A stretch of 20,144 bases of DNA, from positions 1 through 20,144 of the forward strand of contig LXFE01000542.1 in NCBI GenBank assembly GCA_001929475.1, written 5' to 3'. The notes below the pieces were generated by a model that worked only from the letters and a program-made list of their open reading frames with translations, was not told the origin of the DNA and did not search any database. This document shows, in pieces, positions 123 through 17,852 of the stretch. Both the position numbers and the translations under genes were made by a program. Positions within the stretch are counted from its first letter, which is position 1, and every line of letters begins with the position of its first letter. Origin of the DNA: Neolecta irregularis DAH-3 (Eukaryota; Ascomycota; Neolectomycetes; Neolectales; Neolectaceae).

Positions 123-208
123 GGCTCAGTGGTCTAGTGGTATGATACTCCGTTCGGGCTCGTCGTCTGAACTCGGAGTGGTCCCGAGTTCGAATCCCGG
201 CTGAGCCC
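123..208 (+). tRNA. tRNA-Pro (anticodon CGG) with a 14-nt intron
   Basis: The acceptor arms GGCTCAG (123-129) and CTGAGCC (201-207) pair fully, with C208 as discriminator. The D-arm region has the usual eukaryotic Pro form (TGGTCTAGTGGTATGA). The anticodon stem is CTCCG (148-152) with CGGAG (174-178). The loop reads TT-CGG-G, then an intron at 159-172 placed after position 37, the canonical site, then T. The T arm carries TTCGAAT; its stem 184-188/196-200 has one A-C mismatch. A T-run at 212-216 fits a Pol III terminator. The gene decodes CCG proline codons. Removal of the intron would need the tRNA splicing endonuclease. Confidence 0.95.
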
Positions 209-426
209 CGCTTTTTAATTCAGTATTTATTACACATCGTCATCATAGCCCCAAGTATTTCACTAGCTAATTGTTGATATGAAATTGGCCGAAGATAAAT
301 AGGTCCTGGTCTGTGAAATCGGATACAATTTGTGTTGTTTTAGAAGAGCAAGCAAAGATAGGAGTAATAAATTGATGATGAAATCTACGAAGCAGCATTC
401 TATTTCATTTCATTCTAGATTTCCAT
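209..426. other. Intergenic spacer between tRNA-Pro and the 3' end of the PAS gene
   Basis: A Pol III-type T-run (212-216) opens this stretch. The rest is AT-rich and includes the 3' flank of the minus-strand PAS gene. No open frame with recognisable content was seen. Confidence 0.6.
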
Positions 427-1631
427 CTATTCATCTTCACTTTCTCCAGAGCTCTCTGAGGTATCTGTCTCCATCCCGTATCCTACATAACTATCTGAGC
501 GATCACCATACTTATTGGGTCTACCCTGAGCATATTGATCAAACACCTCTTCGTTGATGCGAATTGACCAAACGAAAACAGCCATGTCTCGAGCAGTCTG
601 CAAAAATCCTTCTCCACAATGTCTTGGAAAAGGAGGAGGCAAGGGATTCGTAGCCCAGGGACTCGCAAAAAGAACCGGGGGCGCTGACACCATTTGTCGT
701 GCTCGACGTAGCACGACGACGATTCCGTCTGATGTACACGTAACTACTGCTTCGACTTCGAATGTGGAACATTGAATTGCAGTTTCAGATAATAATCCTC
801 TCGAAGAACTGAAACCAGACTTTATGAGATTGCGATTTTGACTACCAGAAGAGAACGTGAGAGAATCGCGAGAAAAAGGGTTTCTCCAAGGAAATCGCAG
901 GTAGGCGAGTGAGTCGTTTTCTTTCGCTCGTTCGATGGCATCCACAGCACCTTCGAGATGATTTTCCGAAATACATTTGAGAAAAGAGTGCCCGCGAATG
1001 TCTTCGGCCGAAATACCGAGTATTGACAATGAAGTGTGAGTAGCGTAGAGAATGGGTAATGTCCGTGAATATCGATTGATGATAAAAGCTACTCTAGGTT
1101 CGCAACTCCTTTCCCTGTCTACAAATTTTGTGGAAAGGTGCTTAATCATGTGGTATCGTGGATCCGCAGGAGTCGAAGAAATCACTGGAGAAAACACAGC
1201 AGAAATTTCAGGCGCCATTTCTTTGCGTTCTAGGATTAGAGTTGATCCAGTAGCCATAAGTACTTTCACTCTTCAACCCTTTTGTATGAATTGTCGTAGC
1301 CGCTATAAAAACGTCATAGACTACTGTGAATACACATTCACAACCAACCCATTCCTGCTGCTTATTCTTGAGTTTGCAGTAGCTCAGCATTGCAGCTTTA
1401 TCGAGTTTGATCTGATTGGAATGGATGTCTCTAGCGAGAGGGACTTGTTCAGGGTGAAAGAAGTCAAAGCAAGACTTTGCGACGACGTCTGACGGTTCAT
1501 AGCCCAAAACGTCGGACACTGACTGAGATGCATAAAGGATGGTAGCATTAGGGCTAAGATCGTGCAGCGTAATAAAAGTACTAAGATTGTAAGACTGATA
1601 TGGATACAGTCAGGGAATCATACATGTCCAT
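427..1631 (-). CDS. Fungal double-PAS domain protein, 375 aa, three exons
   Basis: Exons on the minus strand are 1631-1624, 1580-1264 and 1229-427. Introns are 43 nt (gtatga...cttag) and 34 nt (gtactt...cctag, with a ctaat branch site), and the frame closes exactly. The first coding exon is only ATGGACAT; splicing gives MDITFITLHDLSP, the N-terminus expected of this family. PAS 1 (about 1-105) has VSDVLGYEPSDVV, then SCFDFFHPEQVP and WVGCECVFTVVYDV. PAS 2 (about 150-235) begins near FIINRYSRTLPILYAT. PAS 1 lacks the flavin-binding NCRF(L/Q)Q motif of LOV domains, so a photoreceptor role is unlikely. The tail is acidic (METDTSESSGESEDE). The family is conserved in fungi but has no settled function; a signalling or transcription-related sensor is inferred. 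The short second intron is supported because it restores the conserved GLKSEKR segment and continues into the second PAS region. Confidence 0.88.
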
Positions 1632-2785
1632 GATATATATTTTTCCGACCGTGGGAACAGTCCTGGACTTGAAGTTGTGAGGAGAGCCCAAAAACCGCAG
1701 GGTTGTAAAAGTTGAAAAGTTGGTTTCATCCGAGACAAAGGCCGTGTTAAATAGATGTTCGTTAGCTGATCGGCTCGCTGGTCCGATTCCACCCCGAACT
1801 TCTCCCGGTCCGTCCACGCGGTCGCAAAGATATTCCGAAGGCACAAGACGGTACAAATTTTGGCGGTATGAAGCGAGCGCGTTTGAAATATTAACCTTTG
1901 CCAAGCCCGACGCCAAAATACCATTCTAGAGTCTCGATTCACATATTCATAATTTGTACTAGCATGAATAGTGAAAGGTGACGACTGTCAAGATTTTGTA
2001 ACTAACCGAGAATCGCCTCACTATGAGTGCATTGGTCTAATGGCCAGTTCTATAAACCAAAGGAATGTTTACAGGTATTAGGTGACACCCGCATTAATAT
2101 AAACTCTTATTCACGTTGCAGACGCAAACAATAGTCAATTGAACAGCCAACCAAACAAATAGAGAAAGCTGTGGTCCAAGTATCCCATTTTGATACTGTA
2201 TATTACTGAAGAAAAACCATCTTGCGTAATGTGAACCATTACGTGACTTCATGGTTAAAAAATAGCCGCGATATCGGCCCTAGACAGGGTTATAGTCTTA
2301 CTCGGACCTTTCAAGTTGGAAGATTTCTAATTTTAGGTCTTATCAATCATATTACAATACATTCTTGATTGATAATTTGACTTGTTTTCATAAAAAGATG
2401 TTACGTAGGAATTTCGAAGAAAGCTTGCAGTGATTAGGGTGCATTAGATTGAAACACAACTTTTTCGGGGTTTATGTTGTCAACAAACTTGAAGACAGCA
2501 AACTCGTTGGAATTAGGTGTGCTTTACCTGGCACTTACTCTGCCCATTCAGAGAAATCCTTTGAGATTACCATTCCTGATCGTACCTATAAATTCTATCA
2601 TCGTTGGTTGTCGCCCCAGATATCGTTGCATGAATCTTCGGTGTACAATTCTTCTTTTACTCGAAAACTCTAGGATCTATCTGTAATCCTTATTCGCATC
2701 GTTATGTACAATCAGAGGTCAAAGTTTTCGCTGACAGATTCCAAGAAATAGTGAGAATTTTAATTGATAATAGAAGCACGCACAA
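1632..2785. other. 1.15-kb intergenic region upstream of the PAS gene
   Basis: This lies between the 3' end of FOX2 and the start of the PAS gene, both on the minus strand, so it should hold the PAS promoter and 5' leader plus the FOX2 3' flank. Overlapping open frames at 1581-1942 on the minus strand look like leader sequence: they show no family resemblance and run into stops before the PAS frame. A plus-strand open stretch at 2449-2673 has no ATG at its start and no recognisable domain. The region is AT-rich with no convincing RNA gene or repeat. Confidence 0.55.
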
Positions 2786-5700
2786 TCACATTTTTCCTTT
2801 GGGTGAACCTATCAACTTCCCAATTGCCTGGCTCTTCATGATATTTCCCTTGATCTTAATTTTCCCTGTCATAAACATCTTCTGAGCGTTTCCTTTTCCA
2901 TTTGCTAGGTCAACAAGGTCATTGTCCTCAATGACGATGGTGCAATCCGGCTTGGTAGCCTTACCTAAACCAACGGCTCCTTTTGTCTTGCATGTTAACA
3001 AGAACGCCAATAGAGTCAAATACCTTTGCGTCTATATACCAAGCCTGTTGTTCTCCAGATGAATTTATAACATCAAACTGGAAGATTGCATTGACTTGCT
3101 TTAGTGTTGAGACTTTCTCCCTCTCGTCAGCAACAGAAAATTGTTTGGCAGCATCTTCAAAGACTTTGGAACAAGCAAACCCTTTGATGGCAATAGACCC
3201 AACTGAAGTCTTTTCAGAAGGATTGTTCGACTTTGAACCCAAGAGTTCTACAGCAGCAGAGGAAATGGCAATAGTATTTCGTTCGACGACTTTGGTTTGG
3301 AAGATCACTTTGTTCCCTTCCTTCCACATTTCGGTTCGCAGGGTTTCACCAGGGAAGACGTGTCCAGCAAACCGAACTTTGATATTCTGGAAAGGTCCAA
3401 ACTTTTGATAGAGATGTTTTCCGCTGATACCAAAACTACATAATCCGTGGAGAATAGGTTGTGGAAATTTCCCTATTTTGCTATTTCGTAAGTATATTTC
3501 CCAAAATGTAGGAAATACGCAAAATCGGGATCGATATGAAGAGGATTTCGATCACCGCTTAGTCGATATATCGCAGATTGCTCTTCCGAAGTCTTCTCTT
3601 CAACGACAGCGTCTGGACTGCGTTTGGGTGGGGTATTCGCAGCAGAAGCATTGCCTCGATCCGCAGATTTCGATGGGCCACCGAATCCACCACTTCCTCG
3701 AACAAAGACGGTCGCCTGATTCGCAAAGATAGTCTCACCACTCGAATCTTTAGTCTCCGTCGCAATAACAACTGTAGCGGCTTTTTGCTTATCGACGATC
3801 TCGACAACTTTTGAGTGTGTAATGAACTTTCCTGATGTTGGAATAGGGAACTTTTTAATCTCTAGATACTGCTCACCATGGAGCAACATCATCTACATAG
3901 TTGACACTGCTTATGCATATTGGGACTTACAGGAGAAAAGTTTTGTAGGAAATCATCATATGGAGTCGCCACCATCGACGGAAATTGAGGGATGACTCCG
4001 AAGGTGGGGAGGGCTTCAAACTGATCAGCCCCTTCGAACACCCACTTGAGGTCTGTTCGTTTCGCTCCGATCCCGATGTTATATAAGATAACATCTCGAT
4101 CATTATATGAGTATTCTATACTATCATACTTGACCTTTCGAGCTTTCGAGATAACATCCTCGACCCCGGAGGTAGAGGTATTGCCTGATATATTGTTCAC
4201 GTTCTCGAGAATAGCACTGAAAGAATCTTGAGGACTGTCAGGGTAAGTAGCTCGATTGTCGAAAGTAACGATTTCTTTCCACTTTGCACGAACTTCTTCG
4301 GGGTGTAGTGTTTTGTCAATGGGGAATCCGTATCCAGCCGATCTCTGCCATCGCACTCGGGCAACCCAACCACCGCCAACTTCGAAGATATTTCCAGTTG
4401 ATGGACACATTTCGTGACCGAGAAGGCAGACGAGAGGGGCGACGTAAGCCGGCTTGAAAGCTTGAACCATTTCTTCAGACCAGACGGTTGCCGTCATGTT
4501 GGTCCCGGCGTTTGGAGCAATTACATTAACGAGGATATTGTATTTGGCACCTTCTCTAGCAAGAGCTTTGGTAAACCCAATGAGGCCTGATTTTGCACAA
4601 GCATAGTTGGTCTTCCTTATTAGTAATCGATCTTTTAAGAAGATTTGATACTTGACCAAAGTTTCCATAGAGACCAACCGCGCTAGAAGTATTTAAGACT
4701 CGTCCATATTTTTGCCTTAAGAAATGAGGCCAAGCTGCTCTGGTAACTTTGTAAGCGCCTCGAAGATGGACTTTAAGAACGTCATCCCATTGTTGATCAG
4801 TGATCGCATTGAATGATTTATCGCGAAGAATACCTGCGTTGTTGATAATGACATGAATGGCACCGAATGCATCGAGACAAGTTTTGATGACGGCTTCGCC
4901 ATCTTCGACACTATTTTTGTCACCGACTGCATTGCCGCCGGCAGCTTTTATTTCTTTAACGGTTCCATCAGGATTCATTACATCATTAACTACGACATTG
5001 GCTCCCATCTTCGCGAATAGTAGAGCATAGGCCTTTCCAAGACCTCCTCCGGCACCAGTGACTAATACAGTCTTCCCGCTGAAGTTCAAATTATTGCCTT
5101 GTTCATTTTTTGGTAAATGTTTTGATGCTTCGAGCATTGATACCCAGTCGACATCAGTAACAGCGGTTGGATATGTAGGGTCAGAGAAATCGGTAACTTT
5201 GGAAAATTGTTTGAGGATTGCAGATGAAGTCAATGAATCGTCGGTTTTGAAGAGGGCTCCAGCAGATCGTTGATAGCGAAGCTTTGAATAAAACCCAGCA
5301 CCAAGTTCGTAAACTCCGCCGGATTCTTTATTATTTTCGTGAGTGAGAAGTACTACTAATGGGACAACCCATTCTGGTTTCAAGTTCTTGAGAATCTCGG
5401 GGGGCATGACTGTTTCTGTCATTCGACTGGTCGGTAAGAAATTGATCTCGCTAGGTGTTTACCTGGCTGCTATAGGGACAATGGTGTTAGAGATGATGTT
5501 ATACTTCGTGCCTTCTTTTGCAAGAGAATTACTGAATGAGACCATGCTCATTTTCGCAGTCGAATAATTGACTTGGCCAAATGATCCATAGATACCCGCT
5601 GCTGAGGAAGTATTTATTATTCTTCCGTACTTCTGCTTCCGAAATATAGGCCAGCAAGCTCGTGCACACTAATTGGATGAGATGCTGCAGGGTTTAAAGA

Positions 5701-6209
5701 ATTCACTTTGTAGGATCCTCGAATGTGTACCTGGACGATGAGGTCCCAATCTTGATCCTTCATGTTCTTGAATGAGACATCTCGCAAAATACCTTCATCA
5801 ATGAACTTTGTTTTCCAATCATAACATTATACCAGCGTTGTTAATTAAAATGTGTACCGTTCCAAATGCTTTAACTGCTGTTTCGACGATTTTATCGCCG
5901 TCTTCTACCGAATCGTAATTTGCAACTGCTCTTCCTCCAGCCTTTTTGATTTCTGATTTTCCGTAAAAGGATATCGATAAGAAGGTTACCATCAACTACA
6001 ACGTCTGCAGCCTTTGTATTGTTTCCCTCTCCACTAGCTGATACACCTAAATCGTTTACAACGACGTTGGCACCGCGGGAGCCGAAGAAGACGGCATAGG
6101 CACGTCCTAGTCCACCTCCAGCGCCAGTTATCTCGGTCCATCAGCATTCAAGCCAATCAATCTGGGATTTTACAATGACAGTCTTGTTGTCAAAACGAAG
6201 TTCAGACAT
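2786..6209 (-). CDS. fox2: FOX2-type peroxisomal multifunctional enzyme (3-hydroxyacyl-CoA dehydrogenase / enoyl-CoA hydratase 2) with C-terminal SCP2 domain
   Basis: Ten exons on the minus strand: 6209-6174, 6131-5990, 5952-5833, 5792-5707, 5668-5463, 5426-4652, 4611-3931, 3892-3519, 3480-3024, 2986-2786. Together they code for 1025 aa; the nine introns are 36-42 nt. SDR 1 has [12 protein letters not shown] (14-25), NNAG and Y163xxxK167. SDR 2 starts near residue 310 with [21 protein letters not shown] and Y458xxxK462. The hydratase 2 domain (about 620-890) carries [17 protein letters not shown] (791-807), with the catalytic Asp and His. Residues about 905-1025 form an SCP2 lipid-carrier domain. 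The enzyme performs the hydration and D-specific dehydrogenation steps of peroxisomal beta-oxidation. The C-terminus is PKGKM, aligned with the usual PKAKL-type PTS1 but non-canonical. Many ascomycete FOX2 proteins are about 900 aa and lack SCP2. The intron 4 acceptor (5669) is the least certain junction. Confidence 0.94.
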
Positions 6210-6443
6210 GGTTGGAACGCGGAGAAATTGGGGCAAACGCCCGTTTTATGGGTCTCGCGTCACATGTCGTCTGCCGAGGTGATCAAACAGGCAAAGAGAA
6301 GCAGTTTCGCCAATTACTCTCTCTTCCAAATACAACCCATTAATGTAATATTCAAACAATTCACAAGAACCAGGACCGTAGATTCGAATTTCATAAATTA
6401 TAATGCTGTGTATACACGGTAATCCATCGGACAGAACTCTCTC
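6210..6443. other. FOX2 upstream region / E2 downstream region
   Basis: This 234-bp gap lies between the FOX2 start codon and the E2 stop codon; both genes are on the minus strand. It must contain the FOX2 promoter and the E2 3' untranslated region. No clear TATA box or repeat was identified. Confidence 0.5.
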
Positions 6444-7015
6444 TCAGCTAGCGTATTTCTTAACATATTCCTTTACGTTCTTTTCAAACTTCTTTTTGTC
6501 TGTCTTGAAGACCTCTGCGACCGAGGTAACAAGAGGATCGTCAGGGTTACTATAGATTGAGTTGCCATATACTGCAAAGACTGGTACGGCTCCTGGAACA
6601 GCCTGACAAGATCTTCTAGTACAGCCGTAATCTTGATGCTTGGCTTCCACTCCTCATTCTTGACGATTGACATGCAGATCGCGCCCTCAGAGTCGATGTT
6701 GGGGTGGTATATACGTGTCTTGAAGGTGATGATAGGTGGTTTGAATGGATACGTATCAGGGAACTCGATATTGAAGGAGAACTTGGCGCCCTAGTCATGA
6801 TCAGCATACGATTCAAAGACAGCAGAGGTACTTTGTAGGGCGTTCCTGCTGGCCCAGTCAAAGTACATTGCCAGGTAGCCAGGTTGCTCTCATTTATATC
6901 GATTTTGATGTTTGGATTTGGGCTGGAGTTAACCAGCGCAGCATCCTACAGTCTCAGCTGGGAGATGCAGATGACCACACACCTTTGCCAGTCTCTTTGC
7001 TGTGGTTGAAGACAT
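6444..7015 (-). CDS. E2 ubiquitin-conjugating enzyme, UBE2L3-like, 151 aa, four exons
   Basis: Exons on the minus strand are 7015-6983, 6945-6832, 6790-6588 and 6549-6444; introns are 37, 41 and 38 nt. The spliced protein is 151 aa, the normal length of a bare UBC fold. It shows TWQCTLTGPAGTPYKGAKF, the beta-sheet and PxxP segment EFPDTYPFKPPIITF, and YHPNIDSEGAICM, where the Cys after GAI is the catalytic thioester residue. The following EEWKPSIKI corresponds to ENWKP in UBE2L3, and the tail KKFEKNVKEYVKKYAS matches its C-terminal helix. UBE2L3-type E2s work with HECT and RBR ligases because they transfer ubiquitin to cysteine; that specificity is an inference here. The start is the only ATG in frame after the last upstream stop that leads directly into the family N-terminus (MSSTTAKRLAK). 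Confidence 0.92.
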
Positions 7016-7187
7016 GGGCACCGGCCCGAGTGCGAGGCAGGATGCTGGTTGTGGTGGAACCAATTTGGTCCCGGGGGCATCCGGGATTCGGGAAGACCCG
7101 GTTACGGCGACTTTCTGTAACAATTGCTGTCTATCATACTCCGCTCGCTATGTCTGAACGGTGCAATCGCCCAATGGTCTGCTGCTA
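7016..7187. promoter_or_regulatory. Bidirectional promoter between the E2 and eIF3g genes
   Basis: The two start codons (7015 minus, 7188 plus) face away from each other across 172 bp, so both promoters and 5' leaders must share this interval unless they overlap the genes. It is more GC-rich than its surroundings, especially 7020-7110, with C/G runs and no clear TATA box on either strand. Such spacing is common for housekeeping gene pairs. Confidence 0.6.
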
Positions 7188-8089
7188 ATGCCACCTAGAA
7201 ATATGAACTGGGCCGATATTGACGACGACTATGATCTTCCCACTCCTGAGATCACAGAGGATCCCGCGACAGGAATTAAAACTATCGTCGAATACAGAAT
7301 TGACGGCGGCAAGAAAGTCAAAATCACTAGACGGATTAGATCTACCATCATCAAGGAAAAAGTGAAACATGCCGTCGCAGAACGCAAAAAATGGGCCAAG
7401 TTTGGATTAGAGAAGGGTCGTAAGGAAGGTCCTGATTTGAGTACTACGACCGTCGCCGAAAACATGAATATAAAATTTAGTATCGGTTGGTCAAAGGTTC
7501 GCTCTGCACCTCGATACTCGCTAAACTTATCATAGAATAAAAAAGAGGAAACTTCAGACGACAAGACAATGCTAGATAAACTCAAAGATAAAAAGGTTAC
7601 ATGTCGAATCTGTAAAGGCGATCATTTCACTACTCGCTGCCCCTACAAAGAGAGCATGCCAACTGAAGACGCCTCCGTTTGCGACCCTAACCCTGAGCCC
7701 GAACTCTCAGGTGGAGGCGGGTCTCGATACATTGCTCCTCATATGCGAGCCGGATCTAAACGTGATGCTGCTGGTGATAGTATGTATAGACGGGATCGCG
7801 ACGATTCGACTACCCTGCGTGTTACCAACGTCAGCGAAGATGCTACTGATGAAGATCTTAAGGTTCTTTTTGGACGTTATGGACCAGTAACCAGGGCTTT
7901 TGTAGGAAAAGATCATGCCACTGGTCGTGGAAAAGGATTTGCGTTCATAAATTTCGCAGATAGGGACTCCGCTACCAAAGCTTGTGAGAAAATGGATGGA
8001 TTTGGTTACGATAACCTAATTCTGAGGGTTTGTTATGTAATTTTATCACGACTGATCTTTAGGTGGAATTTTCGAAAGCAAGAGAGTAA
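7188..8089 (+). CDS. TIF35: Translation initiation factor eIF3 subunit G, 275 aa, three exons
   Basis: Exons are 7188-7496, 7536-8027 and 8063-8089, with introns of 39 nt and 35 nt; the last exon codes only VEFSKARE plus the stop. The N-terminal half has the eIF3g signature: NWADIDDDYDLP, GIKTIVEYR, KKVKITRRI, then ERKKWAKFGLEKGRKEGPD. A CCHC zinc knuckle follows (CRICKGDHFTTRCPYKESM, about 118-136). After a Gly/Ser-rich linker comes a C-terminal RRM (about 187-267): TTLRVTNVSEDATDEDLKVL contains RNP2, and GKGFAFINF is RNP1. The protein binds eIF3i and takes part in scanning and reinitiation within the eIF3 complex. Without the second splice the frame reads on into unrelated sequence, so the 35-nt intron (gtttgt...ctgatctttag) is needed to give the conserved YDNLILRVEF ending. 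Confidence 0.95.
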
Positions 8090-8746
8090 AAGTTTGGTTT
8101 TTCTTTACGTGCAACATACCTGTTTCTCGTTATGACTTCAAATGTTTTCATACAGGTACAGCCAAATACAATTTTATTTTCAGTTGTTCCCTTCAAGTCA
8201 TTGGATTAATGCCCAAGTCACTATATTTGGCCGTCGGTTTAGTAGCCGTTCGGAACATTTTGCCCTACCAAGATCTTATTTCTCCAAAGCTATTACAAAC
8301 ATTGTGATTGAGACTATTTTCACTGAAGTGGCCCACAATGTTCTTCGTACGAATTGTACTTCATAGATTTGCAACGTAATGTTTTTGATATACAATACTG
8401 AGATGTATCACATTCCGCCCTCAGTAATCAAACTCCAAACTCTCATCGCCTTTGCTTTCATGAGTACGTCCATTATGTAGGTTGTTGATTTAGGAACTCA
8501 ACAATAACTAAGCGCAGTGCAGAAGATTAAGGTTGTTGAACGACTTGGTGATTGTACGACGTCAAATTGAAAAGCTAGCTCTAAAGTGATGGTTTCAACC
8601 ATTGCGCAAGATATGCCTAAATGGATTCTGCAACATTGTCTAACCGCAACTTGTGGCACGGAAATGATCTAAACAATCTTACGGGTAATATTTAAGGGCT
8701 CTTTTCTGTTTTGCTTCGTTTAGTTTTTATCAGATTGTATGGGGAC
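8090..8746. other. Gene-poor sequence downstream of eIF3g
   Basis: The eIF3g 3' untranslated region lies at the left. Open frames here (for example 8142-8366) have no family features. Parts from about 8500 may be degenerate internal sequence of the LTR elements that follow, but no reverse transcriptase or integrase motif could be read. Confidence 0.5.
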
Positions 8747-8806
8747 TGTAAGTTTTGATACTCCGAAGTACAAATAAGACCGGGTTTATAGTACTAGCCT
8801 AAGAAT
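8747..8806 (-). mobile_element. Inverted LTR 3'-end fragment (fragment D)
   Basis: Read on the minus strand, this segment ends in CTTACA and carries TCTTAGGCTAGT, then GGTCTTATTTGTACTTC. It aligns with the last part of the LTR at 11847-12030 (ACTTAGGCTAGT, GGTCTTAT, CGTACTTC, CTTACA). It therefore represents the 3' end of a related LTR in opposite orientation, truncated at its 5' side and lying just upstream of the next LTR. No target-site duplication was found. Confidence 0.55.
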
Positions 8807-8832
8807 GGCATTAGAAGATAAAAGGGGGGAAG

Positions 8833-9062
8833 TGTAAGGGTATACAGTTTGGTATACCTCACACACATAACATAGAAAATGGGTATATATATTTGTATAC
8901 CTTAAATGCAGGACAAGGATTAAGCAAGGTTATCATGCAGGAACATTGCATTATTTTAAGGAGTTATGTATAGTATATAAGGGAAGTGGATAAGGACTAT
9001 CTAGCTAAGATTCTCATATCTTAAGCTAGAAATATATCCTAGTCTTATTTGTACTGATTACA
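8833..9062 (+). mobile_element. Diverged solo or 3' LTR (copy A), 230 bp
   Basis: It begins TGTAAGGGTATAC and ends GATTACA, giving TGTAA/TTACA inverted termini. A purine tract (8820-8832) directly precedes it, as a polypurine tract precedes a 3' LTR. It has a TATA-like stretch (agtatataagg, about 8973-8983), an imperfect stem-loop at 9001-9029, and CTAGTCTTATTTGTACT near the end. Start, TATA, hairpin and end occur in the same order as in the copy at 11847-12030. The flanking 5-mers do not match, so it is old or rearranged. No internal coding region could be joined to it. Confidence 0.6.
9001..9029 (+). repeat. LTR stem-loop, copy A
   Basis: Arm CTAGCTAAGAT (9001-9011) pairs with ATCTTAAGCTAG (9018-9029) around a six-base loop, leaving one extra A on the 3' arm. 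The same structure, with different bases in several pairs, is found in copy B at 11921-11949. Confidence 0.7.
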
Positions 9063-9284
9063 GTCAGTGTGTCCATCAATCAATCAATCCATGAGGGCTG
9101 GAGATTGGACCAATTGATCATTGTTACTCTTTTTTTTAATATATTTACATCAAGCAAAATGGAAGTTAGACATGTAGATGAGATTTTAAGATCATTAGGG
9201 CAGAGATGGGCAGGGCAGGAATAGTATAAATTGCTATAGTATGTAGATAATTCTTGATATCTATCTAAATATTAGCAAGGGAAC
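9063..9284. other. AT-rich sequence after LTR A with a short (ATCA)n tract
   Basis: It includes a short tetranucleotide repeat (atcaatcaatcaatcc, about 9074-9090). No gene, PBS-like match or other structure was recognised. Confidence 0.5.
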
Positions 9285-9409
9285 TGACAGGCAGGTGGGC
9301 AAGGTGGGTGGGTGAGACAGGAGAATGAGGCGGGCGCACAGGGTGGGAGAGGTGCACAAGGCAGGCAAGATGGGCGCATGAGGTGGGAGGGGCGCGTGAG
9401 GTGGGAGGG
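9285..9409 (+). repeat. Degenerate G-rich minisatellite, about 18-bp unit
   Basis: The clearest units are GCGCATGAGGTGGGAGGG (9374-9391) and GCGCGTGAGGTGGGAGGG (9392-9409), immediately adjacent and differing at one base. Looser copies extend left to about 9285 with repeated ggtggg and gcgc blocks. The plus strand has many closely spaced GGG runs and could form a G-quadruplex. An open frame on the opposite strand is simply the repeat translated. Confidence 0.75.
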
Positions 9410-9560
9410 TTAGGAGTCGGGTAGTAGATGTCATCTGCAAAATCAACGGGCGACCCATCTTTTACGGTACCCTCTTGGTTGTACACGGCCTCGCCCATAT
9501 ACCGCTTCCCAAAGGTTGCCGCATCGATCCCGACACAAGGAGTGCAACCACGGAGAGCTG
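9410..9560 (-). pseudogene. Possible coding relic next to the minisatellite
   Basis: On the minus strand about 9410-9530 reads as a short open, locally GC-richer stretch (GKRYMGEAVYNQEG, then DGSPVDFADDIYYPTPN) that runs into the repeat. It has balanced codon use but no start, no family I recognise and no continuation. It may be a fragment of a retroelement gene or of a host gene; chance is also possible. Confidence 0.25.
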
Positions 9561-10356
9561 TGGCACTCCTGACTTCCTAAGTAAGAGATCTATTAAAAGG
9601 AATTGAAATAAGCTGAGACTGAGAGGAGAGTCGGAGGCAGCTTGTGGGAATTGAGGCATCCTACAGCTGCCTCGAAAGTAGGAATCTATTGAGTTGAAAG
9701 TGAGACACGGATCGGATAAGTGTTCAGAACAAGTGAGAATTTCACCGGCTTTGCAACACTCTACAACTGCGACTCGTGTGACAAACTAAAACCCTTCAGA
9801 TGTCAGCAACCCGGCATCATATATGCTGTCTCACAATCTCTCGAAATTTTTACCGCTGTAATAAGCCTGTGACGGACTGAGAACCTCCTGATGTCTCCAA
9901 TCCAGCAAGATCCCAATCGCTCAACAAATCGTTGGGATGCCAAGACGTCAAGCACTCTCGATGTTAATAGTGTCATCATCCAGGCACCTATCTTGTATAC
10001 CTCTAGGATTGGGGTGGGATATAAGATTTATGGGTATAAAGCTTCATTGAATTTGGTAAACCTCACTCGCTAGACCTTTGAATTGGGTTCAGATTTTTGA
10101 TCCAGAAAACTATCGGACACGTGGACATGATTAGTGTCTTACAATACCTTTGGCGTCGAGAACAGGGTCCCAGTTACAACCCAGTATGTGCCAATAATGA
10201 TAAATACGTTATTCACATCCCTACAGTGCTGAGATGGTAATGCTTCGATGAAAACAAAACTTGGGAGGATTGAAATGAAAAGCAAGGCAAGTTTCAGAAA
10301 AACTGTACAGTCTAGATAATCTAATTTCACACTGGTTTCAGTGCTCACAATTAGCC
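9561..10356. other. Non-coding or unresolved sequence before the hidden gene
   Basis: A hairpin overlaps the left edge (AGGAGTGC at 9538-9545 with GCACTCCT at 9563-9570). A 9-bp inverted pair, GAGGCAGCT and AGCTGCCTC, lies at about 9634-9674. Short open stretches at about 10096-10237 and 10279-10356 on the plus strand might be upstream exons of the gene that follows, but no consistent splice path was found. Confidence 0.4.
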
Positions 10357-11267
10357 ATGAATATCGGTTCTACAACTCCGAGGCGTCGGTTTGTATGTTT
10401 CAGCGATTTTTCGCCCACAATGCGAATACTTAACTCTCACGAGGCCTGCGATTCATCCATCCAGTCTTTTCACTCTGCCCTATATGAAGTTAAGTCTGTT
10501 ATTTGCGCTCCTCCTGACTATGCACTCTCGGGCTACACGGCCAATCCATTTACAAAGTCTTTTGGATATGCCCCAATTTGAAGTTGGACAAGCAGCTACA
10601 ACAGATTTAAAATTGGAGCTCCCTAGTCGACCGGTTGTACTCATGTTTCTGGGAGATTTCATAGTACAGTCAAAGTTCTAGATCATATCTGATTTTCCAA
10701 AGATGATCGAATATGGCTCAGTATCGATTGACTGGTTGAAATCCACGATGACCCGCTTTCTGCATGATATTTCAGGAGGTTCTGATTTTGTATCAGACCA
10801 GGAAGTTGACATTCGCGATGGTATAGTTCATATTGCTGATCTTTTGTGTAATCTTCCAGGAATACCTAGACGTATGATTGCTTGTCCAATTCCGCACACA
10901 AGAAACATCATAGTATCTGTAGACAACAGTACTTTTCTTTCTTAGACGCAGTTGACCTCCAAGTTGACGAATTATCGTCCGATATGGATGGCTGCACTTT
11001 ATCAAATATTCAAAAATTATTGGATATGACTATTGGGGACTCTGAACTCGATAGATCGCATGATACAGAAGAGGAAGGTATAAACGTAGTCAATATATTG
11101 ATGCTAATTGAAACCCAGGACTTTTAGAAGGAGAACCACAGAACGAAATTGACTTTCGAGCTGAACGTATGTTTTATTCTAGCGACCGCTCATCTGACAT
11201 ATTCACAGTCGAAACATGTGCTAGTATAGTCCATGAATATTGGAACGATATCTTAGAGACAGAATAG
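10357..11267 (+). CDS. Uncharacterised multi-exon gene; 3' exons well supported, 5' structure tentative
   Basis: No single open frame covers this locus, but the short-intron pattern of the neighbouring genes links pieces. The firm part is the 3' end. An exon ending at 11077 (LSSDMDGCTLSNIQKLLD, then DRSHDTEEE) is followed by a 41-nt intron (11078-11118, with gctaat), an exon at 11119-11166 (LLEGEPQNEIDFRAE), a 42-nt intron (11167-11208, with ctgac), and a last exon at 11209-11267 (ETCASIVHEYWNDILETE, stop). Upstream, a 39-nt intron at 10664-10702 removes an in-frame stop between LPSRPVVLMFLGDFI and MIEYGSVSIDWLKS. The exon path between about 10820 and 10930 is unresolved. The ATG at 10357 (MNIGSTTPRR) with a 55-nt intron to 10443 is only one option. 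I recognise no domain; the C-terminus is acidic and probably helical. It could also be a decaying gene. Confidence 0.45.
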
Positions 11268-11649
11268 AGGTTGATGAATATCTTTCAAGTTTTTTGGCAA
11301 ATCGGCTTTTGTTATGACACTTCAAAAACTCTTTGATCTGCATGTCGCCAGGACTCGCAAATTCCCTTTCTCTTTTCTTTCTAGCCTCGATTTTTCGTTA
11401 TAGACTTCACCCTCAGGGATAGTTCTTAGCCGCCTCTGCCCCCGTGAGCCACTCTCCGCCTCAGTTTCAGCCTTTCTCCTCAGTTACCGCTAGAGATTTC
11501 TCTGTGTGGTTTGCTAGAGTTTTTCGGCCTCCCTGTCTTTCACCTGCCTCAAACTCTTTTGTTCTCTTATTTCTCCTCGATCATTTCTCTGTCGAGAGCC
11601 TTGCCGGCAACGGCTATAAAACGCCCCAGTTTTCTCTCTTGAGATAGCC
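11268..11649. other. Pyrimidine-rich sequence with an orphan TATA-like box
   Basis: From about 11360 the plus strand is C/T-rich and leads to ggctataaaacgcccc (about 11610-11625), which looks like a core promoter. No gene starts downstream; LTR fragments follow. It may belong to a retroelement or be a relic. An open frame at 11444-11647 has no recognisable content. Confidence 0.4.
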
Positions 11650-11812
11650 AATTGTATACCTACTTTCTGCACTTGATCTCGACGATCCTGGGAAGCAATG
11701 TACGTCTATGCTCACTCTATATATTACTACTAGTTCAACCTAACCAAGTACGAATAGCGTAGGCTAGTTAATACTACGTAGTCTTATTTGTACTCAGGGT
11801 TCACCACTTGCA
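11650..11812 (+). mobile_element. 5'-truncated LTR fragment (fragment C)
   Basis: It shares with copies A and B, in order, a GTATACCTAC-like start (about 11652), a TATA-like run (ctatatatta, 11717-11726), the hairpin region CCTAACCAAGTA (11739-11750) then TAGGCTAGTTA, and GTCTTATTTGTACT, ending near ACTTGCA (11812). The 3' hairpin arm is degraded. It lies 34 bp upstream of copy B in the same orientation. Confidence 0.5.
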
Positions 11813-11846
11813 AGAACCGTCTTGTTGTGGGGACTCGGAGTTTCGG

Positions 11847-12030
11847 TGTAAGGATATACCCAAAGGGTATATCTTACCAATACGGCAAGGTGGCTTGACG
11901 GGAAGTATATAATAGATATTCCTAGCCAAGTACGAATACTTAGGCTAGGTATGTCCCTTTGTAAGAAGTACGAATACTTAGGCTAGTTATATCACTTGGT
12001 CTTATCGTACTTCTAAGCGCATAGCTTACA
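11847..12030 (+). mobile_element. Solo LTR (copy B), 184 bp
   Basis: It begins TGTAAGGATATACCC and ends AGCTTACA (TGTAA/TTACA termini). Just inside the start is an inverted repeat, ATATACCC (11854-11861) with GGGTATAT (11865-11872); copy A has a comparable GGTATAC/GTATACC pair. A TATA-like agtatataat precedes a hairpin at 11921-11949, and the 3' arm sequence is repeated at 11966-11989. The end GGTCTTATCGTACTTC resembles the other copies. No target-site duplication was seen (ttcgg/ccaag). Confidence 0.6.
11921..11949 (+). repeat. LTR stem-loop, copy B
   Basis: Arm CCTAGCCAAGTA (11921-11932) pairs with TACTTAGGCTAGG (11937-11949) across a CGAA loop with a single bulged A on the 3' arm. The bulge is in the same place as in copy A, while several base pairs differ by compensating changes. 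Confidence 0.75.
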
Positions 12031-12073
12031 CCAAGTCGCCACAACACCCAACCTTTGGGGTAGCTAAAGGAAC

Positions 12074-12321
12074 TGTCAAGAGAAGCCGCCAGCGTCATGG
12101 CCTCGCCCATTCATGATAGTCATCGGACTTGCCAACGGGTATGTCACAGGGAGGCAAAGAGGCAAATGACGGTAGTGTGCATATGTGCTGATTTGTATAT
12201 AAGTAGCGCCTGGCTAGGCTTTTACGAGATATTCAATATACGCAGTTCTTTTCTAAGGAACAATGCTAGGGTACCCAGTCGAAGTTTCACCCAGCATCAA
12301 AGCCAAGTTCGCGTACTGACA
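12074..12321 (+). mobile_element. Possible second-type solo LTR, 248 bp
   Basis: The segment is bounded by TGTCA (12074-12078) and TGACA (12317-12321), inverted termini common in fungal Ty3/gypsy-type LTRs. It has a central TATA box (gtatataagtag, about 12197) followed by a start-site-like stretch. The flanking bases (ggaac and cttgt) are not duplicated, and there is no second copy in the window to confirm it. The open frame at 12097-12351 shows no domain. Confidence 0.35.
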
Positions 12322-12776
12322 CTTGTAATGATTTGCTCCCAAAGAGTTTAGGAAGGTATATGGTGCAACAATCTTTCACCCCACTCGATTGACTCTGATG
12401 ATTTCTACAAGTCAATTGGAAGAGATAAATATATTTGTAAGGTATATACATGTAACATCTGCAACCTGAATCACCATAGTTCTTGGCTGGAAGTCATATG
12501 ATGATGAAAGACCAGAATAGGTGTTAGGAGAAAAATGTTTTAGTCGGAGATAGTCATTACTCTAATCTACCGGAGATTAGACTCAGAATAGGTTCAACAT
12601 GCATCAGTCCAACCGTATCTAAATCGTAGAACATTTTAGCACATAACCCCGAGTCACGTGCACATTCTTTTCTTCCCTCTTCGTTACCCATTAAGGAAAT
12701 TGCAGGATACCAAAATTTCCCCATTCAGATTCTTGTGTTCAAATAAGCCATACCCGGTGTCCAACGACTTGGTCGA
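12322..12776. other. Region upstream of PNS1
   Basis: This AT-rich stretch should include the PNS1 promoter and leader. CCCCGAGTCACGTGC at about 12646-12660 contains a CACGTG E-box, a site for fungal bHLH factors, 117-130 bp upstream of the ATG. A C/T-rich tract (about 12662-12682) follows it. No gene was recognised. Confidence 0.45.
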
Positions 12777-14586
12777 ATGACGTCGTATCAAAGCCAAGCT
12801 GGCTACTATCAGCCTATGAGGGATTCCGAATCTTACACTCCATATCAACCGCCAGAGTATTCTCAAAAGCCTCAAGAGGGTGATCAAACATTTGAGCAAA
12901 AGTTTGAAGTTCGCCCGGTATACAACGATGTACGAGTTCCCCTTTCATCATGTCTAATATCTAGGTTTGGGCTGCGATCGCATTTCTACTCGACCTCTTG
13001 ATCTTCGCTGGCCTTAGTGGATTCTGCATCAATGCCTATCGAAACACCAGTATAAGAAAACTTAGGAGCGTAAAGTTGACCCCGTAGAAGGTTTTCAGGA
13101 CAAGGGGATATATGGCCATTCGAGTAATGATTTCTCAATTAATACGTAAGCGTCTCTGTAGAGAATCTCATTTATAAAACCAGGAACACGACAATTCTAT
13201 TCGCATTTGTTCTGGTCGTCGCTTTCGGATTGGCTCTTCTCTATCTGGTGCTTGCTCGAATGTTCACTAAAGTATGTTACAATCCAACAAGTTTCAAACC
13301 TCATGGGCAATAGATGTTTATCTGGGCGACTGGAATCTTTCACGTTCTGTTAGGTCTCAGTTTTGCCGGCTATTATTTCGCCACTCGTTCTTATGGAGCA
13401 GCCATTGGTATAAGCTATGTACGATCCACCTGGATAACCTCTAGTCCTTGGAATTTTCGCGATCTTTTATGGTATCGCTTTTGTGACCTGGATACCTCGA
13501 ATTCCTTTTGCAACTCAAATCCTCCAATTCACCCTGGACGTATCGCGATTCTACAAGTCGGTTTATCTTGTTTCTTTGTGCGGTTTGCTTGCTCAGATGA
13601 GTTTCACGGCCTGGTTTGCGGTTACTCTTATCAGCGCTTATGTCAAATTCGACCCAGAGACTAACAATCCTGGCTGTAAGCAGACAGGCAGTAATTGTGG
13701 AAAGGGGAGTTTGATCGTGGTCCTCGTATTCTTAGGTACATTCAGAAAATCCACCTTTGGACTGACTCGTTTAGTCTTCAGTGCATATTGGATAACCGAA
13801 GTTATCAAGAATTTAGTTCACACTACTATCTGTGGTGTGTACGGTGCATATTATTATGTTTGTATATCTTTTCTATTTTATTCTGACAGTCAGGGTCTCA
13901 ATAGTCCACAAGGACTACCGCGACATGCGACTCTAGGCTCGTTCCAACGTGCTTCTACTTACAGTTTCGGGAGTGTATCCTTCGGCTCCTTGATTGTTTC
14001 GCTCATCCAATTACTTCGGACTCTAGCGTATGAACTTTTGTAATACAGTTCCTCACGTCACAGTTCGATTGGCGAACAGGACGCTCAACAACAGGGCTCA
14101 ACCGGACTCATGATAGTCTTCACTCTTTTTAGATGTCTCCTCGGGTTCATTGAAGGTCTTGTTCAGTACTTCAATCATTACGCATACACTCAGGTGGCAC
14201 TATACGGGAAAAAATACATCCAAGCAGCCAAAGATACATGGTCTTTGATCAAATCGAAAGGAATCGATGCTATTATTAATGATTGCCTTATCGATAATGT
14301 TCTGACAATGGGGACTGTCACTATCGCATACATTTGCGCCTTCCTCTGTTACCTGTATCTCAAGTTTACCAAACCAGGGTACAACACTGACGATGCATTT
14401 ACACCGGTGATTATGGCATTTGGGTTCTTGGCTGGACTACAAATTGGAAACACTGCCACTGTCACGATCAAGAGTGGAACTGCAACCTTGTTCGTCGTGA
14501 TCGCCGAAGACCCTGCTGTTCTAAGAAACTCATTTCCGCTTATCTACGAGCGAATCATGCAGCGCTATCCTGGGTTTTCTATGTAG
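12777..14586 (+). CDS. PNS1: PNS1, choline-transporter-like (CTL/SLC44 family) membrane protein, 502 aa, nine exons
   Basis: Exons are 12777-12929, 12965-13049, 13088-13145, 13184-13271, 13314-13407, 13445-13735, 13775-13857, 13894-14027 and 14064-14586; the eight introns are 35-42 nt and the frame closes at 502 aa. A hydrophilic, Tyr/Gln/Pro-rich N-terminus (1-50) precedes the first membrane helix (VWAAIAFLLDLLIFAGL). Family landmarks follow in order: NTKGFQDKGIYG, FVTWIPRIPF, YWITEVIKNLVHTTICGVYG, a Pro/Gly loop SPQGLPRHATLGSFQRASTY, SFGSVSFGSLIV, then ALYGKKYIQAAKDTW, KGIDAIINDCLIDNVLTMG and GFLAGLQIGN. About ten membrane segments are expected at the plasma membrane. Yeast Pns1 is related to choline transporters, but yeast work did not show choline uptake, so the substrate is open. 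Introns 6 and 7 contain no in-frame stop. Confidence 0.95.
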
Positions 14587-14863
14587 GCAGAGAAGCGGTT
14601 AAGGATACATGAGGATGAGTAGATGCTATATGATGTAGCTTAGGGATGTTTAGAATGTTTCCCTTCTGTACCTGATTTATTTGTCCCACGACCATCTCCC
14701 GTGAATTTCCGATATTTGTCAACCAACCCCCGCATTCTCACCAAACACGACTTGGGGCTGACATTCCACAAATATTTCGCTCGGTCACCTCTAGTACATT
14801 TTTGGGTTCTCTCATTCAGCTCGTATTCACTTAAATTGATATCAGTCGTTCATTACAAACGCA
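14587..14863. other. Intergenic spacer, PNS1 3' flank and promoter of the next gene
   Basis: 277 bp between two plus-strand genes. No repeat or RNA gene was seen. The sequence before the next ATG (gttcattacaaacgcaATG) is a normal A-rich fungal start context. Confidence 0.5.
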
Positions 14864-15577
14864 ATGTCATCAGAATCTCTTGAAACCCATCATCCAGCGC
14901 CCTCGTATAGCTCCCAAAGCATCTACCTATTATCACAAGGAAAATTAGAAACTATTGCTCCGCTCGGCATTCCGCGGAAACGCTCAAAGTTCGTTAACAA
15001 GTTGTTCCCCAAGAAGCGCAGCACATCCGAACAAATCTTGAGCTATTTCAATGATTATAGCCCCGGTCCCTCATCTCCAGTTTCTCGTATCCCAAGTAGA
15101 AATACAGACTCGATTTATCCCTCGTCTGAATCCCGGCCGCTTACTGAGACTATTCGACCGCCCAAACGTCGTGCTCTTCGTCGAACGGCCAGTGAGGGTT
15201 CTTCCGCGGATTTGCGAAACGTTTTTCGGAGTATTACGAGTACAATATACAACCTTCCTCTTCAACAATACTCCCAACTTATCGCTTCGTCAAAGGTTTA
15301 TCGAGAGCTAAGCTCGACCGTGAGCTCCACTCGCTTTCAAGATTACGCGAAGACTATTATTCTGGATTATACGCCTCGAAAGCTCGAAGGAAATGCGCGA
15401 AGGATGTTGTATGGCAAACGGGGAGAGAGTCGGATCGAGAAGTATTCTCGCTATGCAGCGATTGCAGTGACAGGTTGGATTGCTTTTCGATGTTTTTGGA
15501 GTGTTATTTCCGGTGTCTTTAGTATCCTGAGAATGGTGGAAGTAGGCGTTCGAGTTTTAGGATGGTTTTTATTCTGA
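14864..15577 (+). CDS. Uncharacterised basic protein with C-terminal membrane segment, 237 aa
   Basis: This is a single-exon frame with a good start context and no need for splicing. I do not recognise a family. Residues 1-105 are Ser/Pro-rich and probably disordered, with basic patches (PRKRSKFVNKLFPKKR and PPKRRALRRTASEG; RRTAS fits a basophilic kinase site). Residues 115-185 look folded and helical (FRSITSTIYNLPLQQYSQL, then DYAKTIILDYTPRK). The last 40 residues hold one or two hydrophobic helices (AAIAVTGWIAFRCFWSVISG and VEVGVRVLGWFLF), placed as in a tail-anchored or hairpin membrane protein with a cytosolic N-terminus. The codon use, length and clean frame support a real gene; it sits between PNS1 and VPS36 on the same strand. 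Confidence 0.75.
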   Translation: MSSESLETHHPAPSYSSQSIYLLSQGKLETIAPLGIPRKRSKFVNKLFPKKRSTSEQILSYFNDYSPGPSSPVSRIPSRNTDSIYPSSESRPLTETIRPPKRRALRRTASEGSSADLRNVFRSITSTIYNLPLQQYSQLIASSKVYRELSSTVSSTRFQDYAKTIILDYTPRKLEGNARRMLYGKRGESRIEKYSRYAAIAVTGWIAFRCFWSVISGVFSILRMVEVGVRVLGWFLF

Positions 15578-16160
15578 TTTCAGGGAACTTGTGTAGCACC
15601 TGGATCTAATAACCAATGCAAAACATTCTTGATAATCAGAGTTGTGTCTTATTCTGTAAAGATTCGATTTATCGCAATGTCAATGAAAACGCCCACTCTG
15701 CATTCGGAGCAGGCCCATTGAAACCAATGTTGTCTGACTATTGATTCTGATTGCGGTACATGTGGTAATAATTCTTGCGATAGAGTTCATCCGATTGCGA
15801 GTATCTTTAGCAAGAGGGCTACTACCTTGATGGTAGGTATATGATACAGTTGGGAAAGATGCTTTAAGAGACCAACCAGGAGCGCATATGCCTAAACTTG
15901 TGCTTGCAAAAGATGATACTATCTGCAGATCATAAAGCTATAATTTTACATTGCCATGTCGGTCAAATTTGAGCATATCGCATAAAGCCTGGAATAGTTG
16001 GACATTGTGTATCCATTTTGTTTCCCTTTAGCCGATCGGACTAGAATCCTTTCATAGGAGTTTTATTACTTCGACAGTGACCCGTCAATAGATCGTCATC
16101 TCTGTTTGGCCGAAAACTAGAGTTTGATAAAAATCCCACTACAACCGATGTGTCACCGAA
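15578..16160. other. 583-bp spacer upstream of VPS36
   Basis: AT-rich sequence with no open frame above background and no repeat recognised. It includes the promoter and leader of VPS36. Confidence 0.5.
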
Positions 16161-17852
16161 ATGGATCAATGGCAGTATCTCAATCTCTCAGCCTCTGGAC
16201 GTCCAGATTTCGAATCCAACGAGCAGATCGTATTCATCCAGTCGAATGTGGGATTGTATAATGGGTACAAGGTAGTCCCTGCTGCTAGTTGACAGACACA
16301 GTCGACAAAAGTCGATGGATTATCAACATGGCTCCGTTTACTTGACTTCGCGTCGGATCTGTTATGTCGACCAAGAAAGACCAGCTACACACTCGCTTTT
16401 CATTCCACTGTTTTCAGTATCACGCTTCGAAACATCGGTAAATCTAGGAGATTCAATGTTGCAGTTAATTGTTCGATAGCCTGGTTTCTTGAAATCGTCT
16501 GCCAAGATTACGCTCTACCTCGCCGCACCGCATAAATTTATTAAAATACCTCCTTCTTCGAGCTGGGTATGCGAGATCTGTACGTTTGCAAATTTCCAAA
16601 GTGCTTCTGTTTGTGCAAATTGTGGTATTGTCCATTTGTCACAGGAATCAAATTTCGAATCGGAGCTATCTCTGAGGAAGACTACTCCAAATGGATACGT
16701 GTGTCCACGATGTACTTTTGTCAATCATCCAGCTTTGGTCTTGTGTGAAATCTGCGGGGCCACTCTGATCTTGGCGAATCTCCCGCTTCAATTGAGCTCT
16801 CAAGATGTCATATCACGTTCAAAGAGTCCGACTCTAAACAATGGGGAGAATGAGCATTATTGCAAACTTAGCTTCCGGGGAGGCGGGGATAAGCCCTTTG
16901 CAGAGAAATTGAAGATTGTTCTTGCAGAAAGGGAGTGGGAGGTACGTAACCCAATCTGCTTTTTGACCCTCAGATCGAGGTTGCAAATATCGATCTTTTG
17001 AAGATTTCGAATGATCAATTGAGACTCTCTACAAAGCAGGGAGCCGGTATCACTGGTCTTGAGAAAGCTTCAGAGACACAGCTCAATCAGGAAGCCACGG
17101 CAATGGGAACAGCCTTTTCTGACCTTGAAGCCTTGATGGCAAGAGCGAAGGAAATGGTAAATAGATGTTATTTCCTTTGCTCATCATGTAGGTTCAACTC
17201 GCGGAATCGTTTGCTTCTCGCCTTGCCAACTCGACTGATCCGGAAGCCAGAGCTATTCTTCAAAAGTCACAACAGGCACTCGGTCTGTCGACGCCCATTG
17301 TCACCAAGGAGCTTGTGGGTACACAAGATCTCTATCATGCAGAACTGGCTCGCCAAGTGAGCGAGTTCTTGGGAAATGGGATAATGGAACGGGAGGGAGG
17401 GGTCATCGGCCTGGTGGACCTGTTTGCAATGTATAATAGAGCCCGAGGTGTCGGTATGCCTATTATCGTCTTTGTTCAAATCTTATCAAATAGACTTGAT
17501 CTCGGCCGACGACCTTGTTGCGGCATGCAGTTCATTTGAGAATTTACATCTACCCTATCGCGTGAAACGCTTTCCCAGCGGGGTTACCGTTATTCGGGAA
17601 CGTAAATGGGCAGATGAAGTTGTTGTTGAGATGATCAGCAAGTGGGTTAGTGAATTAGTAGATGGCGTTGGTGCTCAGGATGCTGCTGCGAAGTTTGGTT
17701 GGAGCGTGCATGTTGCGACGGAAGAGTTGGAGGTATGCATTTCGCTTGACGCTTACTCATGCCGGTAGATGGCGGAGATGAGCAGCGTGTTGTGTAGGGA
17801 TCAGAGTATCCAAGGCGTGCGGTTTTTCAAGAATCTGTTTTCTGAGCTGTGA
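16161..17852 (+). CDS. VPS36: VPS36, ESCRT-II subunit with GLUE domain and two NZF zinc fingers, 489 aa, seven exons
   Basis: Exons are 16161-16264, 16302-16437, 16480-16941, 16974-17156, 17192-17453, 17494-17732 and 17769-17852; introns are 37, 42, 32, 35, 40 and 36 nt. The split GLUE (PH-like) domain begins with FIQSNVGLYNG, HGSVYLTSRRICYVD and GFLKSSAKITLYL, and resumes with HYCKLSFRGGGDKPFAEKLK (about 207-226). Two NZF (RanBP2-type) fingers are inserted: C111xxC114/C125xxC128 and C155xxC158/C169xxC172. The EAP30 winged-helix half (about 255-489) has FSDLEALMARAKEM, FLGNGIMEREGGVIGLVDLF, ISADDLVAACSSFENL and a C-terminal helix. With Vps22 and Vps25 it sorts ubiquitinated cargo at endosomes. 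Two fingers, as in budding yeast, suggest ubiquitin and ESCRT-I binding. Intron 3 could instead end 6 nt later (38 nt), losing two residues. Confidence 0.95.

Follow-up and report, generated by a model that had tools for sequence, protein, structure and literature searches.

Background

The closest described counterparts of the introns considered here are those of Taphrina and Pneumocystis, fungi of the same subphylum as Neolecta, with compact genomes and introns that also lie below the usual fungal size. Among other published values, PMC7181583 gives median intron lengths of 45 nucleotides (nt) in Pseudocercospora fijiensis, 50 in Peltaster and 57 in Dothideomycetes, and the 50-species table of PMC2483917 has 55 nt for C. 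neoformans, 56 for S. pombe, 61-63 for Aspergillus and 32 for E. cuniculi. Here we describe the introns of a 20,144-nt stretch of DNA (the window), which is the whole contig LXFE01000542.1 of Neolecta irregularis DAH-3, together with a sample of introns from the rest of the assembly. In six genes of the window, every intron that we could place is between 32 and 43 nt long.

Neolecta, which is placed in the Taphrinomycotina, forms fruiting bodies (PMC7912804). Its genome was reported by Nguyen et al. (2017; PMC5309816), in whose text neither "intron" nor "splic-" occurs. A count of 4202 Neolecta introns is given in PMC7940399, about 26% of them independently acquired, and the species is among the genomes of PMC8476143. 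No Neolecta intron length was found in passages of four papers dealing with Neolecta and introns, among them PMC7940399, PMC8476143 and PMC7912804. RNA-seq from Neolecta is deposited as GSE300630 (PMC13263728).

Thirty short introns in six genes

The six genes of the window were read in frame, and their introns were set by frame and, where available, by protein similarity. An earlier note on this DNA had claimed 30 introns of 32-43 nt; all 30 were re-derived with identical lengths (mean 37.87, median 38, standard deviation 2.6 nt; Table 1), and all have GT-AG ends. We consider it highly probable that the segments are U2-type spliceosomal introns of the ordinary sort, which have been compacted into a single narrow geometry and are removed by intron definition. 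A rival explanation takes them for coding inserts, frameshifts or assembly errors, the genes being pseudogenes or simply read through. Of the 30 introns, nine have a length divisible by three; an in-frame stop is present in seven of them. The other two, PNS1 introns 6 and 7, could be read through; both are backed as introns by the deposited gene model and by homologues, the aligned PNS1 homologues being without these segments.

Removal of the segments also completes the domains of the E2, eIF3g, PNS1 and VPS36 products. The match to the PNS1 (choline transporter) profile of Pfam rises from 117.3 bits in one open frame to 287.9 bits in the spliced model, the corresponding gains for UQ_con (E2), eIF3g and EAP30 (VPS36) being those of Table 1, and profile coverage is nearly full for all four spliced models. 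The spliced FOX2 model, of 1025 amino acids, is 65% identical to Saitoella FOX2 over its whole length. The completed domains and the PNS1 homologues, together with the GT-AG ends, an anchored branch motif in the set and introns of the same size in kinase, TCP-1 and DEAD genes (see below), refute the coding-insert explanation as a general account and leave it a very small probability. The two introns of the PAS-domain gene are the least supported, since their junctions (at residues 100 and 206) flank the domain (residues 115-190), so that both are placed by frame and splice motifs.

The deposited gene models bear on the claim of the earlier note that standard gene callers would break these genes. 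All eight PNS1 introns are used, residue for residue, in the deposited PNS1 model (P0121; gene at 12777-14586, + strand), which contains in addition a spurious 36-nt intron in a conserved exon, at the cost of 12 residues that homologues have. The deposited FOX2 model (P0003) uses introns 1-3, 5 and 6, that is, five of nine; intron 4 is left unspliced, a false 32-nt intron being called downstream in its place, and the protein appears to stop within intron 7, without the final 343 of the 1025 residues of the spliced model. Both genes are mis-modelled in the deposited annotation, with one intron retained, two false ones added and FOX2 truncated, but 13 of the 17 introns are present in the two models; the claim thus holds in part, and the size class is already implicit in public annotation. 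Splice errors of this size class, such as those in the deposited FOX2 and PNS1 models, can mislead studies of gene content.

As a separate observation on FOX2 (2783-6209, - strand), an SCP2-type region seems to be retained at the C-terminus of the protein, like that of Saitoella FOX2 (PF02036 in P0001); PF02036 is absent from the precomputed Pfam annotation of the Taphrina (900 amino acids), Morchella, Orbilia and Tuber FOX2 matches.

Intron length across the assembly

The assembly sequence searched amounts to 8.96 Mb in 363 contigs and is partly masked; masked stretches occur in five of the 10-kb loci that were fetched. Intron length was estimated, with no use of splice sites, as the genomic gap between exon-wise Pfam matches minus three times the profile gap. 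A pair of matches was taken as contiguous if the profile gap was -8 to 4, with genomic gaps of up to 1500 nt allowed, which gave 46 contiguous pairs out of 67 for kinases, 16 out of 20 for TCP-1 and 6 out of 9 for DEAD genes. The match rows behind these counts were entered by hand, contigs with only one match being omitted. Sixty of the 68 contiguous pairs imply introns of 31-47 nt (kinases 40/46, TCP-1 15/16, DEAD 5/6). The size pattern is genome-wide, and the short introns claimed for the window extend beyond it.

For 55 of the 68 pairs, with estimates of 31-71 nt, the DNA was fetched and the junction read. Many stretches had more than one frame-compatible junction: three (L038, L039, L073) were omitted as ambiguous, leaving 52 assigned, and in seven (L027, L045, L057, L058, L076, L077, L080) the junction that best fitted family motifs was preferred over the first listed. 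Owing to these choices among alternatives, the 68 pairs and not the read introns are the fair sample of length. Fifty-one of the 52 assigned junctions give introns of 31-43 nt. The 82 read introns (30 from the window and 52 fetched, the latter picked after a gap estimate of 31-71 nt) have a median of 37 nt, and the standard deviation of length is 2.8 nt in 81 of them. Introns of 3n length are few in the genome-wide set; as profile matches run through them, they are missed by construction and this deficit supports no claim.

Four fetched loci, L029-L031 on contig C213 and L089 on contig C218, have 62-70% GC, against 40-50% in the fetched 10-kb loci, and lie on possible contaminant contigs. In length and branch geometry the C213 introns are like the rest, and dropping the three of them leaves the median at 37 nt. 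Ab initio gene prediction, run with a flat prior on intron length, was also tried, and was dropped for homology because the coding signal was too weak; in that run only the 30-44 nt bin exceeded the decoys, with 13 against 2-11.

Splice-site anatomy

Seventy-nine of the 82 introns are GT-AG and three are GC-AG, a tally that is partly by construction, since only GT or GC donors and AG acceptors were considered. The apparent GC-AG introns are those of L041 (assigned by eye), L052 and L058, of 35, 37 and 35 nt. At the acceptor, 39 of the 82 have TAG and 27 have CAG.

Branch-motif statistics were computed on 81 introns, the one of 71 nt being left out, with 300 shuffles. There are 59 instances of YTNAY in which the A lies 6-9 nt ahead of the final G, where the shuffles average 10.2 and never exceed 18; for the stricter CTRAY the figures are 30 observed and 1.65 expected. 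The peak stays at 6-9 nt when the position of CTRAY, which is present in 40 of the 82 introns, is searched without restriction. With the A placed 5-13 nt before the end, YTNAY is found in 68 of 81 introns and missing from 13, which bears out the branch site near the acceptor described in the earlier note. In the 34 introns with CTRAY in that interval, the branch A falls at position 28.7 +/- 2.3, at a distance of 7.8 +/- 1.4 nt from the last G. So close to the end of the intron, the branch A leaves no room for a polypyrimidine tract, and the claim that there is little or none holds. The GT-AG ends and the anchored YTNAY support the spliceosomal identity that had been proposed. A comparable branch-AG distance is known from Debaryomyces, where it is 6-8 nt in 65% of introns (PMC2483917), in a counting that may differ from the present one.

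The donors are weak. A is found at +3 in 60 of 82 introns, T at +4 in 46 and G at +5 in 34, whereas G is very strong in fungi at a donor position called '+4' in PMC3033335, taken here as +5 of our numbering. Position +5 carries 0.08 bits; the nine donor positions together carry 6.1 bits, of which GT alone accounts for 3.7, and the mean match to the U1 complement is 5.1 of 9. Among the donors of the window, the GTAxxx and GTTTGT forms had been noted, and both are there; that these should be the only forms is incorrect, since GTGAAT, GTGTGT and GTTCGC also occur.

Weak donors and a narrow size class could mean that introns are chosen mainly by a fixed donor-branch-acceptor spacing, size itself being the recognition signal. 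Such a ruler has been considered for ciliates with very short introns. The small spread of intron length, the constant distance from branch A to last G and the low information content of the donor, all given above, speak for such a model. The longer introns of 71 and 157 nt described below appear, on the other hand, to be tolerated. If spacing were the signal, exonic look-alikes should be avoided: in 8.8 kb there were 14 against 27.6 expected, with 6 of 300 shuffles as low, but in 48 kb of long open frames there were 112 against 118.4 expected, and several control patterns were more depleted. Depletion of look-alikes, not reproduced in the larger sample, was rejected as evidence for a ruler. 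We regard spacing as the main determinant as a doubtful proposition, and return to the ordinary spliceosomal reading, in which the donor-branch-acceptor spacing may contribute to recognition.

Splicing machinery and a proposed mechanism

A U2 RNA was found (132.8 bits), with GUGUAGUA intact. A U1-like RNA scores 43.7 bits, under the Rfam cut-off of 69.5, and has the 5' end UCACUUACCUGGC. Contig C238 carries a gene that was picked up by a CCCH match and is, by eye, U2AF35-like; it has introns of 44 and 41 nt of its own. Two KH matches, one of them above the cut-off of the family that includes SF1/BBP, are by eye of the KHDC4 and FUBP types.

We infer that the cell splices its transcripts at these sites, in the following manner. 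A weak donor, G/GTA, would be followed after about 28 nt by the YTNAY branch site and after a further 7-8 nt or so by the last G of YAG, with no polypyrimidine tract. U1 and U2 RNA would pair as usual, U1 at the weak donor and U2 at the branch site, and the AG just past the branch would be read directly; a plausible reader is the small subunit of U2AF, and a U2AF35-like gene is present in the assembly. The driver may have been genome compaction in this lineage, short introns being a tendency among its relatives as well.

Several observations weigh against this picture. Eight of the 68 pairs gave estimates outside the short class, at 55, 56, 59, 71, 114, 162, 168 and 275 nt. The 59-nt estimate reads as a 38-nt intron (L057) and the 71-nt one as a true 71-nt intron (L037), the single assigned junction outside 31-43 nt; the 114-, 162- and 168-nt pairs, whose matches report the same open-frame length, look like protein inserts. 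An intron of 157 nt is present in L025, in a gene that by eye resembles CWC24. The introns are thus consistently short, but "uniformly tiny", as they had been called, overstates the case at its edges (71 nt in L037, 157 nt in L025 and 44 nt in L085). In the ab initio run, GT-AG chains were not commoner than those of decoy dinucleotides (32 against 28-33). Finally, the 8.96 Mb searched, partly masked, gave no match to U6 or SF1-HH, the controls also being without a match, and the 17 matches to the U2AF-large family were all below cut-off. As the searched sequence is incomplete and masked, the latter results make no statement of absence for U6, SF1 or U2AF-large, and no conclusion was drawn on loss of any of them as a cause of the short introns.

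In Saccharomycotina, U at donor position +4 has been linked to the loss of METTL16 or SNRNP27K (PMC10581693). Contig C351 (L090) carries a METTL16-like gene (PF05971, 82.5 bits, NPPF motif), and METTL16 loss as the reason for U at +4 in Neolecta was accordingly rejected; orthology is not proven, as the PF05971 family also matches bacteria. We note as an observation that Neolecta donors favour U at +4 despite this gene, unlike the rule described for Saccharomycotina (PMC10581693). A bolder reading would make these the shortest intron class of any macroscopic-fruiting fungus that is not intron-poor, with introns chosen by spacing over donor sequence and with donors that favour U at +4 and almost disregard +5 despite a canonical U1-like 5' end and a METTL16-like gene. 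We put it forward tentatively and think it improbable as a whole; if it were true, a METTL16-like gene kept together with U at +4 would go against the link to METTL16 loss drawn from budding yeasts.

Other features of the window

The coordinates of the introns are collected in Table 1. An unnamed gene at 10357-11267 (+) seems to contain, at 11078-11118, an intron of 41 nt that has the branch motif CTAAT and would fit the same class. No intron was seen in the window's NDT80-type gene or in the open frame 14840-15577. The former, an apparently intronless NDT80/PhoG-type gene, contains tandem repeats of 18-36 nt in its N-terminal part (19586-19810, -). A tRNA gene at 123-209 (+), left unnamed by ARAGORN, looks by eye like a tRNA-Pro(CGG) gene whose anticodon loop carries a short intron. 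Scattered repeat remnants between 8788 and 12000, AAGTACGAATACTTAGGCTAG and TAGTCTTATTTGTACT, resemble decayed ends of mobile elements.

Table 1. Introns placed in six genes of the window, with length, position, strand and basis of placement (a slash marks the splice junction; "deposited", P0003 for FOX2 and P0121 for PNS1)
Intron	Length (nt)	Position	Strand	Basis
PAS-domain gene	43	1581..1623	-	frame, splice motifs; PAS_3 match starts 15 residues past junction
PAS-domain gene	34	1230..1263	-	frame join of two open frames; no homologue compared; among least certain
FOX2 intron 1	42	6132..6173	-	frame, homology, identical in deposited
FOX2 intron 2	37	5953..5989	-	frame, homology, identical in deposited
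FOX2 intron 3	40	5793..5832	-	frame, homology, identical in deposited
FOX2 intron 4	38	5669..5706	-	frame, homology to Saitoella and Taphrina FOX2; retained in deposited
FOX2 intron 5	36	5427..5462	-	frame, homology, identical in deposited
FOX2 intron 6	40	4612..4651	-	frame, homology, identical in deposited
FOX2 intron 7	38	3893..3930	-	frame, homology; deposited reads in and stops there
FOX2 intron 8	38	3481..3518	-	frame, homology (HIDPDFA/K..PILHG)
FOX2 intron 9	37	2987..3023	-	frame, homology to Saitoella FOX2 (P0001), C-terminal part
E2 (ubiquitin-conjugating enzyme) intron 1	37	6946..6982	-	frame; spliced UQ_con covered from profile position 1
E2 intron 2	41	6791..6831	-	frame; UQ_con from 92.9 (one open frame) to 162.5 bits (spliced)
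E2 intron 3	38	6550..6587	-	frame; UQ_con reaches profile position 139 of 140
eIF3g intron 1	39	7497..7535	+	frame; in-frame stop inside; eIF3g domain from 44.8 bits (exon 2 alone) to 146.9 spliced
eIF3g intron 2	35	8028..8062	+	frame; plausible RRM end LILR/VEFSKARE
PNS1 intron 1	35	12930..12964	+	frame, homology, identical in deposited
PNS1 intron 2	38	13050..13087	+	frame; identical in deposited
PNS1 intron 3	38	13146..13183	+	frame; identical in deposited
PNS1 intron 4	42	13272..13313	+	frame; identical in deposited
PNS1 intron 5	37	13408..13444	+	frame; identical in deposited
PNS1 intron 6	39	13736..13774	+	3n without stop; homology (VLVFL/VFSAYW); identical in deposited
PNS1 intron 7	36	13858..13893	+	3n without stop; homology (GAYYY/GLNSPQGLP); identical in deposited
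PNS1 intron 8	36	14028..14063	+	frame; identical in deposited
VPS36 intron 1	37	16265..16301	+	frame; Vps36_ESCRT-II domain 84.6 bits once spliced
VPS36 intron 2	42	16438..16479	+	frame; Vps36_ESCRT-II domain as for intron 1
VPS36 intron 3	32	16942..16973	+	frame
VPS36 intron 4	35	17157..17191	+	frame; EAP30 from 51.3 bits in one exon to 180 spliced
VPS36 intron 5	40	17454..17493	+	frame; EAP30 full length
VPS36 intron 6	36	17733..17768	+	frame; EAP30 full length

Comparison with known systems

Neolecta is a free-living fruiting-body fungus in which most of the introns examined are about 37 nt long, yet several occur per gene, and it thereby separates intron shortening from intron loss. Its introns offer a natural, near-minimal substrate on which recognition of donor, branch and acceptor can be followed without a polypyrimidine tract and with little donor sequence, in a species used for studying the origin of complex fungal bodies.

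Within the subphylum, the medians of 38 nt in the window and 37 nt among the 82 read introns are below the published values for Taphrina, with means of 48-51 nt (PMC4007546, Table 2), and for Pneumocystis jirovecii, with a median of 45 nt (PMC7181583). These values are also what one would cite to argue that shortness is a common Taphrinomycotina trait, with Neolecta just at the lower end and nothing specific to it. Short introns are, however, not uniform in the group: in S. pombe the median is 56 and the mean 82 nt (PMC2483917, Table 2; mean 81 in PMC4007546), P. jirovecii has a mean of 61 nt (PMC4007546), and the median given for Novakomyces olei is 261 bp (PMC7912804). On balance we give the shared-trait explanation an even chance.

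The filamentous ascomycetes, with which the earlier note had contrasted these introns, share with Neolecta the GT-AG ends, a CTRAY-like branch and a weak polypyrimidine tract. The contrast in length stands, as the medians of four Pezizomycotina (Gibberella, two Aspergillus and Neurospora) are 56-83 nt (PMC2483917, Table 2), but given the membership of Neolecta in the Taphrinomycotina, where short introns are common, these fungi are not the nearest standard of comparison.

Yarrowia, Giardia, Trichomonas and some hemiascomycetes are described in PMC2483917 as lacking a polypyrimidine tract and keeping the branch-AG distance nearly fixed, as Neolecta does. These genomes are intron-poor and have a strong branch consensus, whereas Neolecta has 2-9 introns per gene in the six genes and CTRAY in only about half of its introns. 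It thus shares with that class the fixed branch-AG distance, and neither the scarcity of introns nor the strong consensus.

A single narrow size class of spliceosomal introns, to which Neolecta comes close, its 71- and 157-nt introns apart, is found in Paramecium, the Bigelowiella nucleomorph, Dicyema and Encephalitozoon, with medians of 25, 19, 25 and 32 nt (PMC2483917, Table 2). In that account little branch motif is seen in Paramecium, the nucleomorph and Dicyema, and Encephalitozoon has only 13 introns. The medians of Paramecium, Dicyema and the Bigelowiella nucleomorph speak against the suggestion that the Neolecta introns lie near a steric limit. Set beside all these systems, the introns of Neolecta are an extreme of a known kind and not a new type of intron.

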